Shown: positions 3 through 5,742 of the stretch, piece after piece
Numbering within the stretch: the first letter of the stretch is position 1
How the letters are laid out: each line of letters starts with the position of its first letter
Origin: a bacterium
GTDB lineage: Bacteria; SM23-31; JAUVVT01
Direction of reading: 5' to 3'
Assembly: GCA_030616165.1 (NCBI GenBank)
Contig: JAUWXV010000230.1
Coordinates: forward strand, 1 to 5,742
DNA length: 5,742 bases
Notes under the pieces: generated by a model
Database searches by the model: none
The model's input: the letters and a program-made list of their open reading frames with translations, nothing else
Told to the model about the DNA's origin: nothing
Made by a program: the position numbers and the translations under genes

Positions 3-752
3 GAGTTTAATGAAGCAGAAGATGGTTTAAATATTCTCAGAGAGAAAAACATACCTCTTATTTTGTGTTCAAGTAAAACAAGATTAGAAATAGAGGAACT
101 TAGATTCCGATTAAAGAATAATAATCCTTTTGTTGTAGAAAATGGGGGTGCTATTTTTATTCCGAAGGATTACTTTGAGAAGCCAATTGAAAAGGGTTTT
201 ATGCTTGGGAATTATTGGGTTATTGAAATTGGATTAGATTACTCTACTATCAGGAAAAAATTTCAAGAATTAAAAAAGATTGTTTCTTGTTCTATGCGTG
301 GATTTGGTGATATGACTCTGGAAGAGATTTCAAATATTACAGAACTTTCAATTAAAGACGCAGAGAAGGCGTCAAAACGGGAATATTCCGAACCTTTCAT
401 ATTGGATGAGAAGAGCGAAATAAAAAGAATTGAGCAATCACTGAGGGGAGAGCAATTTTTTTTAACTTGTGGAGCAAGATTTTTTCACCTGACAGGTCCC
501 AACGATAAAGGAATGGCAGTGCGAATTCTCACAGATATATTTCAAAAAAATTATATTGAAAAACCATTGATAACAGTCGGAATAGGAGACAGTAAAAATG
601 ATATTCCAATGCTTAAAAATGTAATGCATCCATTTGTAGTTCAAAAAGCCGATGGAGTATTTGATATTGACATTGCTCTGTCGAATGTTAAATTGGTAGA
701 AGGTATAGGACCAAAAGGGTGGAATAAGGTTATATATTCAATGTTTCAGTAA
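3..752 (+). CDS. mpgP: Mannosyl/glucosyl-3-phosphoglycerate phosphatase, HAD-IIB family (5' end missing)
   Basis: This cytoplasmic phosphatase would remove the phosphate from glucosyl- or mannosyl-3-phosphoglycerate, giving the free solute. The reading frame is open to the left edge, so the gene starts outside the window. The TTG at 63 is an internal leucine (motif LILCSSKTR), not a start. In the 249 visible residues, HAD motif II is CSSKTR (22-27), followed by the family signature ENGGAIF (46-52), REYSEPF (126-132), GARFFHLTG (157-165), the motif III lysine in GPNDKG (about 169) and motif IV GIGDSKNDIPML (193-204). The C-terminal GPKGWNKVI also fits the MPGP subfamily. Only about 20 residues, including the nucleophile motif DxDGT, should be missing. 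The stop lies 41 nt before gpgS, so an operon is likely. Family assignment is firm. Specificity is inferred: next to gpgS, glucosyl-3-phosphoglycerate (a GpgP role) or mannosylglucosyl-3-phosphoglycerate (an MggB-like role) are more likely substrates than the mannosyl compound. Confidence 0.9.
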   Translation, partial: EFNEAEDGLNILREKNIPLILCSSKTRLEIEELRFRLKNNNPFVVENGGAIFIPKDYFEKPIEKGFMLGNYWVIEIGLDYSTIRKKFQELKKIVSCSMRGFGDMTLEEISNITELSIKDAEKASKREYSEPFILDEKSEIKRIEQSLRGEQFFLTCGARFFHLTGPNDKGMAVRILTDIFQKNYIEKPLITVGIGDSKNDIPMLKNVMHPFVVQKADGVFDIDIALSNVKLVEGIGPKGWNKVIYSMFQ

Positions 753-2033: not shown

Positions 2034-3269
2034 ATGAAATTTAGTACTGCGCTTCGTTCAGAAGCTCGAAGTAGAATAGAAAGTCTGGAACATGCCGATA
2101 TTATTATTGGAATTCCCTGTTATAATAACAAAGAAACAGTAGGACGTGTTGTCAGAACTGTCCAACAGGGATTAAGTAAATACTATCGTGATTTAAGGTC
2201 TATTGTTATGGTTTCAGATGGTGGGTCTGTGGATGATTCAAGAGAAGAGGTTGAGCAGATAAAACCGAATCCGTGGAGTGAGACTCTTTGTGGGATATAC
2301 CGTGGTATTCCAGGGAAAGGATGTGCTCTGAGGTCAATATTCGAAGCGGCAAAGTTTCTTAAAGTTCGTTCCTGTTTGCTTTTTGATGCAGATCTCCGTT
2401 CTATAACCCCAGAATGGGTTAAGAATATGGCTGAACCTATCCTTTCAGGGAAATATGACTATGTTTCTCCATATTATAGAAGATACAAGTATGATGGAAC
2501 GATAACTAATTTAATTGTTTATCATTTGACGCGCTCACTTTATGGATTGCGAGTGAGACAACCAATAGGGGGGGATTTTGCATTATCCCTTCCTGTGATT
2601 GAAGATTTTTTGGAATATGATGTTTGGGAGACTGATGTAGGAAGATTTGGAATAGATATTTGGATGACTACAAATGTGATTGTCAAAAGATTCAGAATTT
2701 GTGAATCAAGGCTTGGGGTTAAAGTTCACGATGTTAGGGACCCAACCGAATCACTCGGTCCTATGTTCAGACAGGTATTGGATACTCTATTTGAATTGAT
2801 GGAGGATTATGAGCCTGATTGGAGACGCATTAAGGGAAGCGAATCAGTAGATATATTGGGTGAAGTCTCAGATTTAAAACCAAAACCCTTTGAAGTCAAT
2901 CATGCAGCATTAGTTGAAAATTTCAATATAGGGTATGAGCATTTTGGTCCTCTATGGGAATCTGTTTTAGAACCTGAAAATTTCCAAAAACTTCGTGAAC
3001 TTACAAAATTGAAAGCAGATGAGTTCATTATGGATGCAGAATTGTGGGCGAAAATATTATATAATTTTTCTGCAGTATTTCATAAGTGGAGAAAAAATCG
3101 TTTTAAACTTGTTACATCAGTGACTCCGTTGTATAATGGCAGGGTAGCTTCATTTGTGAACACAACAAGAGATATGGATGATTTGGAAACAGAAAAAGTT
3201 ATCCAGAAAGATGCCCAAATATTTGAAGAAATGAAGGACTATTTAATTAAGATTTGGGATTCGATTTAA
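2034..3269 (+). CDS. GT-A glycosyltransferase, glucosylglycerate synthase / MggA-like
   Basis: This is a retaining-type GT-A glycosyltransferase of 411 residues, probably completing a glycosylglycerate solute. Visible motifs are the Rossmann-like start IIGIPCYNN (24-32), SDGGS (61-65), GKG (94-96), the metal-binding DAD in DADLRSITPEW (118-128), YKYDGTITN (151-159), RQPIGGDF (175-182), RFGIDIWMTT (204-213), a likely metal-ligand histidine in GVKVHD (228-233) and GPMFRQ (242-247). The order GKG, DAD, QP-GG-(D/E), (D/F)GID, H parallels the mannosylglycerate synthase of Rhodothermus (GT78), and overall the protein resembles what I recall of glucosylglycerate synthases (Ggs). The ATG follows AAGGAG (2020-2025) at 8 nt and lies 25 nt after gpgS. 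It could be Ggs (NDP-glucose plus glycerate), MggA (GDP-mannose plus glucosyl-3-phosphoglycerate) or MggS (GDP-mannose plus glucosylglycerate). Sequence alone does not decide, so no symbol is given. The region after about residue 265 is a helical-looking C-terminal domain without motifs I recognise. Confidence 0.8.
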   Translation: MKFSTALRSEARSRIESLEHADIIIGIPCYNNKETVGRVVRTVQQGLSKYYRDLRSIVMVSDGGSVDDSREEVEQIKPNPWSETLCGIYRGIPGKGCALRSIFEAAKFLKVRSCLLFDADLRSITPEWVKNMAEPILSGKYDYVSPYYRRYKYDGTITNLIVYHLTRSLYGLRVRQPIGGDFALSLPVIEDFLEYDVWETDVGRFGIDIWMTTNVIVKRFRICESRLGVKVHDVRDPTESLGPMFRQVLDTLFELMEDYEPDWRRIKGSESVDILGEVSDLKPKPFEVNHAALVENFNIGYEHFGPLWESVLEPENFQKLRELTKLKADEFIMDAELWAKILYNFSAVFHKWRKNRFKLVTSVTPLYNGRVASFVNTTRDMDDLETEKVIQKDAQIFEEMKDYLIKIWDSI

Positions 3270-3346: not shown

Positions 3347-3497
3347 GAGACTGCTGAAAAAGTAGATTACCACGTTGTCCCCTTACAGTTGCGGGGGAAC
3401 TTCTCGTAATGACACATTGATTGTTGTCATTACAATTCAAGATTTGATGTGTAGCAATCATAGAGTAAAATTGAACAATTTTTTTTTAAGCAGTCTC
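3347..3497. mobile_element. MITE-like element, 151 bp, with terminal inverted repeats
   Basis: The left end GAGACTGCTGAAAAA (3347-3361) and the right end TTTTTAAGCAGTCTC (3483-3497) are inverted copies with one mismatch in 15. The element is flanked by the direct repeat ATATA (3342-3346 and 3498-3502), consistent with a target-site duplication, although the flanks are AT-rich. It has no coding capacity. Inside are a 9-bp perfect hairpin, GTAATGACA/TGTCATTAC (3406-3414 and 3425-3433), and a weaker GC-rich one between about 3374 and 3400. Ends containing CTTTTTCAGCAGTCTC-like sequence are common on insertion sequences and their non-autonomous derivatives, so this is probably mobilised in trans by an IS elsewhere. 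It separates the solute cluster from the aminotransferase gene and accounts for about half of the 313-nt gap. I see nothing definite in 3503-3582 beyond the aminotransferase ribosome-binding site. Confidence 0.75.
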
Positions 3498-3582: not shown

Positions 3583-4965
3583 ATGGGTGGAAAGAGCTTT
3601 AATTTGATTCCGAAGGAGGTTACGCCAGTAAATACAAGGTACCGCCGTATCCATACAAAGATACCAGTTCCGGAATCTATAGAAATACTTAAGAAATTAC
3701 AAAAGTTCGAACCGTACTCAATGAGCGGTCAGCCTCTTGTTATTTGGAATAGGGCATCGGGTGTAAATGTTTATGACAAATGGGGTAATATTTGGCTGGA
3801 TTGGAGTTCGGGAGTATTGGTTACTAATACTGGACATTGCGCACAGGAGATTAAAGAATCTATAATAAAGCAGGCCGAAAAAGGTTTGATTCACAATTAT
3901 TGTTTTCCAAGTGAAATTAGAGCAAATCTTGCAGAAAAATTGATATCTATTACTCCCCCTGAATTGGATAAGATTTTTTTCCTTACCACCGGTTCAGAAG
4001 TGACCGAGAATGCAATAAAGTTGGCAAGAACTTATGGTCAGAAGCGCTTTGGAAAGGAAAAGATATGTATAGTATCATTTGATAAGGCATTTCACGGAAG
4101 AACTCTTGGAGCTCAGATGATAGGAGGGATACCAGCACTTAAAGAATGGATTGTGAATCTTGATAAGGATATGGTTCAGGTTCCTTTCCCTGATGGATTC
4201 AGGACAAAAGATACAGGTTTTGGGCTCTTTTTAAAATCGTTAGAGGAACTCAATATAGAACCTTCAAGGGTTGCCGGGATTATCCTTGAGACCTATCAGG
4301 GAGGAAGCGCAAGTTTTGCCCCAAAAGAGTATATTCAGCAATTATCGAAGTGGTGTAAAGAGAATAATGCACTTTTGATATTTGATGAAATTCAGGCGGC
4401 TTTTGGAAGGACAGGAACTATGTTTGGATTTGAACATTATGATGTTATACCAGATTTAATGTGCTGTGGTAAAGGGATAACCAGTTCCCTTCCACTGTCT
4501 GCTGTTATCGGGAGAGCAGAAATAATGGATATATATGCTCCGGGCGAAATGACAAGTACACACAGCGGAAACCCAATATGCTGTGCAGTTTCTATTGCAA
4601 ATATTGACAAGATTTTAAGGGAAAATTTGGTTGAAAATGCAAAGAATATGGGTGATGTCTTGTTTGAGGGGCTTGATAAATTGAAAAACAAGTATGATTC
4701 TGTGATAGGTGCAGTACATGGGAAAGGATTAGTTGCAGGAGTTCAATTGGTTAAACCTGGTGGAATTGAACCTGATGGAGACCTGGCTTTTGATGTAGTT
4801 TCAAGATGTGTTGAAAAGGGACTGCTGTTTTTTGCGCCGGTTGGATTCGGAGGAGCAACAGTAAAGATATGTCCTCCACTTGTTATTACGGAAGAGGCAA
4901 TTATGGAGGGTCTGCAGGTAATTGATGAGGCTTTCGAGGAGGTTTTATCAGGGGGAAGGGAGTAA
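3583..4965 (+). CDS. Class-III PLP-dependent aminotransferase
   Basis: This fold-type I, class-III (omega/acetylornithine/4-aminobutyrate type) aminotransferase moves an amino group between an amine or amino acid and a 2-oxo acid, using pyridoxal phosphate. The 460 residues are full length for the class, with an N-terminal segment of about 45 residues before the first core strand (VNVYDKWGNIWLDWSSG). Key features are the phosphate-binding TTGSEVTENAIKLAR (135-149), FHGRT (170-174), E236 in ILETYQGG, IFDEIQAAFGRTG (266-278) with the pyridine-nitrogen aspartate D268 and Q271, the Schiff-base lysine K297 in CCGKGITSSLPL, and T326 in STHSGNP. All catalytic residues are present, so it should be active. 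The ATG is preceded by GGAG (3571-3574) at 8 nt. The ATG at 3569 is out of frame. Substrate is unknown; 4-aminobutyrate-like amines or sugar-derived substrates are both possible. It is separated by repeats from both neighbours, so operon membership is uncertain. Confidence 0.9.
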   Translation: MGGKSFNLIPKEVTPVNTRYRRIHTKIPVPESIEILKKLQKFEPYSMSGQPLVIWNRASGVNVYDKWGNIWLDWSSGVLVTNTGHCAQEIKESIIKQAEKGLIHNYCFPSEIRANLAEKLISITPPELDKIFFLTTGSEVTENAIKLARTYGQKRFGKEKICIVSFDKAFHGRTLGAQMIGGIPALKEWIVNLDKDMVQVPFPDGFRTKDTGFGLFLKSLEELNIEPSRVAGIILETYQGGSASFAPKEYIQQLSKWCKENNALLIFDEIQAAFGRTGTMFGFEHYDVIPDLMCCGKGITSSLPLSAVIGRAEIMDIYAPGEMTSTHSGNPICCAVSIANIDKILRENLVENAKNMGDVLFEGLDKLKNKYDSVIGAVHGKGLVAGVQLVKPGGIEPDGDLAFDVVSRCVEKGLLFFAPVGFGGATVKICPPLVITEEAIMEGLQVIDEAFEEVLSGGRE

Positions 4966-4992: not shown

Positions 4993-5188
4993 ACCGCAGG
5001 GACGCATAGAAACAGAGAGAAAATATTTTATCCACAGATTACACAGATTAAGAGAGAGTGGAAATATAAGATAAAAATGGATATTACTATTTTGGATATT
5101 AACAGGTTGATATAAATAGATATAAATTTTTATTTATTCAATCTGTGTAATCCGTGGTTCGTATTATTTTTTTCGCGTCTTCTGCGGT
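4993..5188. repeat. Large interspersed imperfect inverted repeat, about 196 bp
   Basis: There are two nested pairs of inverted arms. The outer pair is ACCGCAGGGACGC (4993-5005) against GCGTCTTCTGCGGT (5175-5188, reverse complement ACCGCAGAAGACGC). The inner pair is CCACAGATTACACAGATT (5032-5049) against AATCTGTGTAATCCGTGG (5140-5157), with one mismatch in 18. The centre (5050-5139) is very AT-rich and has no coding capacity. I recognise the arm sequences as a widespread family of non-coding palindromes found between genes in many bacterial phyla; the family's mechanism of spread is not known to me. No clear target-site duplication is visible. It fills most of the 257-nt gap between the aminotransferase and oxidoreductase genes, starting 27 nt after one and ending 34 nt before the other. 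A separate perfect 14-bp palindrome, ATCTTTTAAAAGAT (4977-4990), abuts its left edge. Confidence 0.8.
5099..5126 (+). promoter_or_regulatory. Possible sigma70-type promoter in the centre of the repeat
   Basis: TTAACA (5099-5104, five of six matches to the -35 consensus) and TATAAA (5121-5126, five of six to the -10 consensus) are 16 nt apart and point toward the oxidoreductase gene. The leader would be about 90 nt and would include the right arms of the repeat. Such matches arise by chance in AT-rich DNA, so this is a suggestion only. Confidence 0.3.
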
Positions 5189-5222: not shown

Positions 5223-5742
5223 ATGAGCAGTTGGGATGGAAGATTGGACGTAGTTTTAGTTGGGGGCGGAATGATCAGTATTGAGGTAATTTTACCGACA
5301 TTGTTTCAGGAGAGAAGGGAAGGAAGAATAGGAAAGATTTCGGTCAGCAGTCTTGATGGGAAATCGATAAAGCGTGTTCAGGAGTTTTTTCCTGGCGAAG
5401 AAATTATTTCTTATCCCGATCCCGATAAGGTTGAGGATGAGAATAAGCCATATCCCGATGAATTCAAGAAAGCCATTGATGGACTCGGAAAATATGGATT
5501 TGTTATAGTTGCTACCCCTGACCATTTTCATACTCCCGTGATTCATTATGCCCTTGAAAAGGGGAAGGATGTTGTTTGTGAAAAGCCATTGTGCCTGAAG
5601 GTTAAGGAAGTTTGGGATATATATCAGAAAGCCCAGGAAAAGGGGTTATATGTCTATACAGACTATCATAAAAGACATGACAGGGCAGTAAGAGGGGTAA
5701 AATACAGGATTGGGAAAGGTGATTTAGGAGAGATATTATACG
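5223..5742 (+). CDS. Gfo/Idh/MocA family NAD(P)-dependent oxidoreductase (3' end missing)
   Basis: This is the N-terminal part (173 codons) of a Gfo/Idh/MocA dehydrogenase, a cytoplasmic family that oxidises or reduces hydroxyls of sugars, inositols and sugar derivatives with a tightly bound or exchangeable NAD(P). The Rossmann fold opens with DVVLVGGGMIS (9-19), has the cofactor-side strand GFVIVATPDHFH (92-103) and the family catalytic motif VVCEKPL (117-123, lysine K121), then TDYHKRHD (146-153), where the family often has an N-x-R-(R/K) element. The segment at about 60-85 (ISYPDPDKVEDENKPYPDE) is longer than in minimal family members and resembles a subgroup I recall from Planctomycetes and related bacteria. 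The C-terminal substrate-binding domain lies beyond the window. The ATG has GAGG (5213-5216) at 6-nt spacing. Substrate cannot be assigned from this part. It could act with the upstream aminotransferase, but the repeat-filled gap weakens that link. Confidence 0.88.
   Translation, partial: MSSWDGRLDVVLVGGGMISIEVILPTLFQERREGRIGKISVSSLDGKSIKRVQEFFPGEEIISYPDPDKVEDENKPYPDEFKKAIDGLGKYGFVIVATPDHFHTPVIHYALEKGKDVVCEKPLCLKVKEVWDIYQKAQEKGLYVYTDYHKRHDRAVRGVKYRIGKGDLGEILY

Follow-up and report, generated by a model that had tools for sequence, protein, structure and literature searches.

Glucosylglycerate synthesis provides the closest described counterparts of the locus studied here. Characterized members of the glucosylglycerate synthase (Ggs) family use glucose donors, with ADP-glucose preferred, and the recombinant enzyme turns glycerate into glucosylglycerate. 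In the published description of Persephonella marina, ggs is reported to form an operon-like unit with gpgS and gpgP. This agrees with the gene order in a genome that we take to be that of P. marina EX-H1 (G441, which belongs to the same family as a named Hydrogenothermaceae bin), namely, phosphatase, glycerate 2-kinase, one glycosyltransferase (GT) of the Ggs family, and glucosyl-3-phosphoglycerate synthase (GpgS). P. marina also accumulates a glucosyl-glucosylglycerate. MggA and MggS belong to the same solute pathway, and their genes adjoin gpgS or Ggs homologues in Petrotogaceae. Mannosylglycerate synthase (MgS, GT78) of Rhodothermus marinus uses a mannose donor and accepts free glycerate, and together with GpgS (GT81) it serves as the reference for the acceptor site (PMC2581804).

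The stretch of DNA that we analyzed (the window) is 5,742 bp long and represents an entire contig of a 3.74-Mb genome bin. It carries five genes, all on the plus strand:

3 to 752, plus strand: gpgP-like phosphatase of the MPGP HAD family (MPGP/GPGP), above the cut-off of TIGR01486, with the 5' end cut by the contig end
794 to 2008, plus strand: gpgS, glucosyl-3-phosphoglycerate synthase of the archaeal type, matching NF040724 at an E value of 1e-106, yet below the curated cut-off
2034 to 3269, plus strand: probable ggs, glucosylglycerate synthase, 411 amino acids (aa), named from its identity to the P. marina protein, the tree, and the predicted fold
3583 to 4965, plus strand: class III aminotransferase
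5223 to 5742, plus strand: Gfo/Idh dehydrogenase, cut

The short gaps between the phosphatase gene and gpgS (41 bp) and between gpgS and the GT gene (25 bp), together with purine-rich ribosome-binding sites, make these three genes look like one operon, and judging by this spacing, ggs is probably cotranscribed with gpgP and gpgS. The GT open reading frame (ORF) begins with an ATG 25 bp past the GpgS stop codon and has an AAGGAG-type ribosome-binding site. The gap between the GT and aminotransferase genes is 313 bp and contains an element of 151 bp (positions 3347 to 3497) with 15-nt terminal inverted repeats that are 93% complementary (GAGACTGCTGAAAAA / TTTTTAAGCAGTCTC), which looks like a miniature inverted-repeat element. 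Another inverted pair (CCACAGATTACACAGATT ... AATCTGTGTAATCCGTGG) lies at positions 5015 to 5174, upstream of the Gfo/Idh gene. The aminotransferase and the Gfo/Idh dehydrogenase were dropped as candidate pathway members, because relatives of either were found within 6 kb (E ≤ 1e-15) in 0 of 70 named ggs loci.

Homologues of the Ggs family were present at E ≤ 1e-20 in 39 of the 386 sampled genomes, and the ORF at 2034 to 3269 is therefore not a chance ORF. Its product is 50.5% identical, over 410 of its 411 residues, to the family member encoded in the P. marina gpgP/gpgS operon (L264, positions 7695 to 8948), making the two genes orthologues. The neighboring proteins also have counterparts in that operon, with 44.5% identity for GpgS and 39% for the phosphatase. 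P. marina Ggs does not differ from the window GT in its catalytic and acceptor-loop residues and is likewise encoded in one operon with a phosphatase and GpgS, although the gene order differs, the glycerate 2-kinase of the P. marina operon has no equivalent in the window, and the DxD motif reads DSD instead of DAD. Identity to the sole homologue, a presumed Ggs, in a genome that we take to be that of Petrotoga mobilis SJ95 (G417; L138, positions 7189 to 8370) is 38%. This protein is of the same family and has all of the catalytic residues in common with the window GT, but unlike in the window, its gene is located away from gpgS, next to genes for a sugar ABC transporter and a regulator of the RpiR type.

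In the phylogenetic tree, the Ggs family is monophyletic and separates from bacterial-type GpgS with full support. It divides into two halves, of which one contains the P. marina protein and the window GT, the latter near Planctomycetota proteins and with moderate support for the surrounding branches (92/68 and 97/78), and the other contains the P. mobilis protein. Against the GpgS model NF010496, the window GT scores 54.7 bits, below the cut-off of 262. The identity to P. marina Ggs, the tree placement, and the shared operon partners all favor one of the readings in an earlier note on this sequence, and we consider the ORF very likely to be ggs, encoding glucosylglycerate synthase (probability of about 0.88). 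As that note also held, the direct and phosphorylating routes would then lie side by side in the cluster, which repeats the P. marina arrangement. The note had credited P. marina with both routes at the genome level; both are indeed present there, but within one operon.

A confident AlphaFold model obtained from 46 window and locus sequences (mean pLDDT, 90.6; pTM, 0.89) gave top fold matches that were all Rhodothermus MgS (Z score of 35.5 over 355 residues; rmsd, 3.1), and the match includes the helical C-terminal domain. In comparison, the match to GpgS (Z score of 20.8 over 224 residues) covers mainly the catalytic domain. The fold is thus closer to that of MgS than to that of GpgS, which would fit free D-glycerate as the acceptor. 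The motifs that had been quoted for this ORF are real and characteristic of the family: DADLRSITPEW (containing D118-A119-D120), RQPIGGDF (residues 175 to 182), RFGIDIWMTT (204 to 213), and GVKVHD (228 to 233, containing H232). Ten residues are invariant in 166 of 166 aligned family members (K95, D118, D120, R150, D154, I157, N159, D208, K230, and H232), and the catalytic GT-A residues (the DxD, Lys, Asp, and metal-site His) are intact in the window GT (K95, D118, D120, D208, and H232):

2313 to 2321, plus strand: G94-K95-G96, conserved in 166/166; K95 aligned with K76 of MgS and K114 of GpgS
2385 to 2393, plus strand: D118-A119-D120, the DxD metal and nucleotide motif, both Asp residues conserved in 166/166 and aligned with D100 and D102 of MgS
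2493 to 2507, plus strand: D154-G155-T156-I157-T158, the acceptor loop, with T156 where GpgS has Arg
2655 to 2657, plus strand: D208, putative donor sugar contact, conserved in 166/166; aligned with D192 of MgS and E232 of GpgS
2727 to 2729, plus strand: H232, conserved in 166/166; aligned with the metal ligand H217 of MgS

The comparison with Rhodothermus MgS that had been suggested around the DAD motif and H232 places both at equivalent MgS positions. The reference positions for this comparison are K76, D192, and H217 of MgS and K114 and E232 of GpgS, of which H217 is a metal ligand and D192 and E232 contact the donor sugar (PMC2581804). GpgS of both the mycobacterial and archaeal types has the GT-A catalytic domain, the PGKG motif, the DxD motif, the acceptor V/I-T pair, and the metal-site His in common with the window GT.

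Since MgS is the top full-length fold match and its catalytic and acceptor-binding residues agree with those of the window GT (DxD, K, D, H, and I-T positions), the protein could also be read as a GT78-type mannosylglycerate synthase, transferring mannose from GDP-mannose onto D-glycerate; the adjoining phosphatase family is, moreover, named for mannosyl-3-phosphoglycerate. The GT78 likeness pointed out earlier holds at the level of the fold. In sequence, the window GT is about 16% identical to MgS versus 50.5% identical to P. marina Ggs. Its neighbors, here and in many relatives, belong to the glucosyl route (GpgS), and the glucose donors of the characterized family members also argue against this assignment, which we regard as improbable. 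The preference for glucose over mannose suggested for the window GT derives from its orthology, and our comparisons of this protein found no residue fixing that choice. The PIGGD loop was rejected as a mannose marker, as GpgS of Mycobacterium hassiacum also has a PLGGE loop.

The acceptor carboxylate is held by V186-T187 in GpgS and by I138-T139 in MgS (PMC2581804). The equivalent pair in the window GT is I157-T158, and the residues matching this glycerate-carboxylate site are conserved in nearly the whole family (I157 in 166/166 and T158 in 164/166). The position preceding the pair, beside the acceptor pocket, is Thr (T156 in the window GT) in 165 of 166 Ggs-family members and Met in MgS, whereas in GpgS it is Arg in all 74 sequences compared (59/59 of the archaeal type, including the window GpgS, and 15/15 of the bacterial type). 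We propose that Arg versus Thr in the acceptor loop would mark enzymes for 3-phosphoglycerate versus free glycerate. A literature search found no paper that identifies Arg185 of GpgS as binding phosphate, and this meaning of the Arg/Thr difference is accordingly put forward as a hypothesis.

The arrangement of Ggs beside the two-step route, already known from P. marina, turns out to be common. Among the 36 named loci that extend 4 kb or more to either side of the ggs-family gene, 24 encode GpgS and/or the phosphatase within 6 kb of ggs, indicating that the pairing is ordinary; a glycerate 2-kinase occurred within 6 kb in 13 of the 70 named loci. Pairs of ggs and GpgS genes were observed in Planctomycetota, a Nitrospirae bin, Aminicenantes, Aquificota, Syntrophaceae, a Zixibacteria bin, a Pleurocapsa bin, and a Thermoplasmata bin. 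On the other hand, no GpgS of either type was found in the Kosmotogaceae (Kosmotoga and Mesotoga) that carry a ggs-family gene, suggesting that the enzyme can work without GpgS.

Having two routes to one product within one operon seems redundant, although the pair is found repeatedly in different phyla. The window GT might instead be a second glucosyltransferase in series with GpgS, adding glucose to glucosyl-3-phosphoglycerate (GPG) or glucosylglycerate (GG) to yield diglucosylglycerate, and the glucosyl-glucosylglycerate of P. marina would be in keeping with such a step. The Kosmotoga and Mesotoga genes that occur without GpgS, the (nearly) invariant glycerate-carboxylate site, and the formation of glucosylglycerate from glycerate by recombinant Ggs all speak against it, and we think it very unlikely for the window GT. 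The broader proposition, that Ggs mainly glucosylates GPG or GG to diglucosylglycerate in organisms with ggs and gpgS in one operon, strikes us as improbable too; if true, ggs and gpgS would act in series and not as redundant routes.

Several loci show other forms of the pairing. Fused proteins of 733 to 755 aa, all of one family (f23), combine an N-terminal GpgS-like part with a C-terminal Ggs-family part (L103, positions 6866 to 9133; L104, 6438 to 8642; L105, 6270 to 8471), and a possible channel-type membrane protein adjoins the fused gene in L103 and L104. In L081 (5176 to 8771) and L087 (7209 to 10338), the Ggs-family gene lies beside that of a bacterial-type GpgS, accompanied in L081 by a gene of the histidine phosphatase family, a class other than that of the HAD phosphatase in the window. 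In L086 (4356 to 11381, which also has a glycerate kinase) and L097 (4475 to 10294), a GpgS-Ggs pair lies between large GT4-like proteins with weak likeness to MggS, and the products are possibly larger glucosylglycerate-derived compounds.

The earlier note had also grouped the motifs of this protein with MggA and MggS, which would add mannose to glucosyl-3-phosphoglycerate or glucosylglycerate to give mannosylglucosylglycerate. Two aspects of the locus invite that reading. The window GT is encoded beside gpgS, a position that MggA occupies in P. mobilis, and the Planctomycetota, from which near relatives of the window GT in the tree come, include Rhodopirellula baltica, which accumulates mannosylglucosylglycerate (PMC3694870). 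The grouping was not upheld by direct comparison, since both MggA (identified by position) and the proteins recognized by the MggS model are of a GT4-like type and lack sequence similarity to the window GT. In P. mobilis, the gene directly 3' of gpgS codes for a protein of 505 aa, presumably MggA (Pmob_1143), as its map position fits, and the best BLAST E value between this protein and the window GT was 7.3. MggS has its own curated NCBIfam model (NF041101), which is matched by the MggS protein of L140 (E value of 4e-129) but not by the window GT. The NF041101-matching protein scores as GT4-type Glycos_transf_1, and such genes occur beside Ggs homologues, as separate genes, in L140 and L107 and also elsewhere in the Scalindua genome. 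A profile search of the window's genome (one search of a bin that is 90% complete) gave no match to MggA/MggS-type genes. With the 505-aa protein dissimilar, MggS covered by a separate model, and no match in the genome, the mannosylated-disaccharide reading is without support here and is scarcely credible for the window GT. In L107 (positions 5209 to 11032), the Ggs-family gene has a GH38-type gene similar to mannosylglycerate hydrolase on one side and the MggS-type gene on the other, and a sugar ABC transporter adjoins.

As glucosylglycerate synthase, the window GT would be a retaining GT-A enzyme of MgS-like fold, moving glucose from an NDP-glucose donor onto O2 of free D-glycerate and thereby forming 2-O-alpha-glucosylglycerate, a compatible solute, in a single step. 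GpgS and GpgP would reach this product from 3-phosphoglycerate in two steps, and the solute may play a role in osmotic or heat stress. The cluster thus points to glucosylglycerate and not to a mannosylated solute, and the Arg/Thr difference suggests a simple sequence marker that may separate enzymes for phosphorylated and free glycerate acceptors. The presence of the direct and two-step routes together is not peculiar to P. marina, and because the pairing recurs across phyla, it is fair to ask why these organisms keep both.
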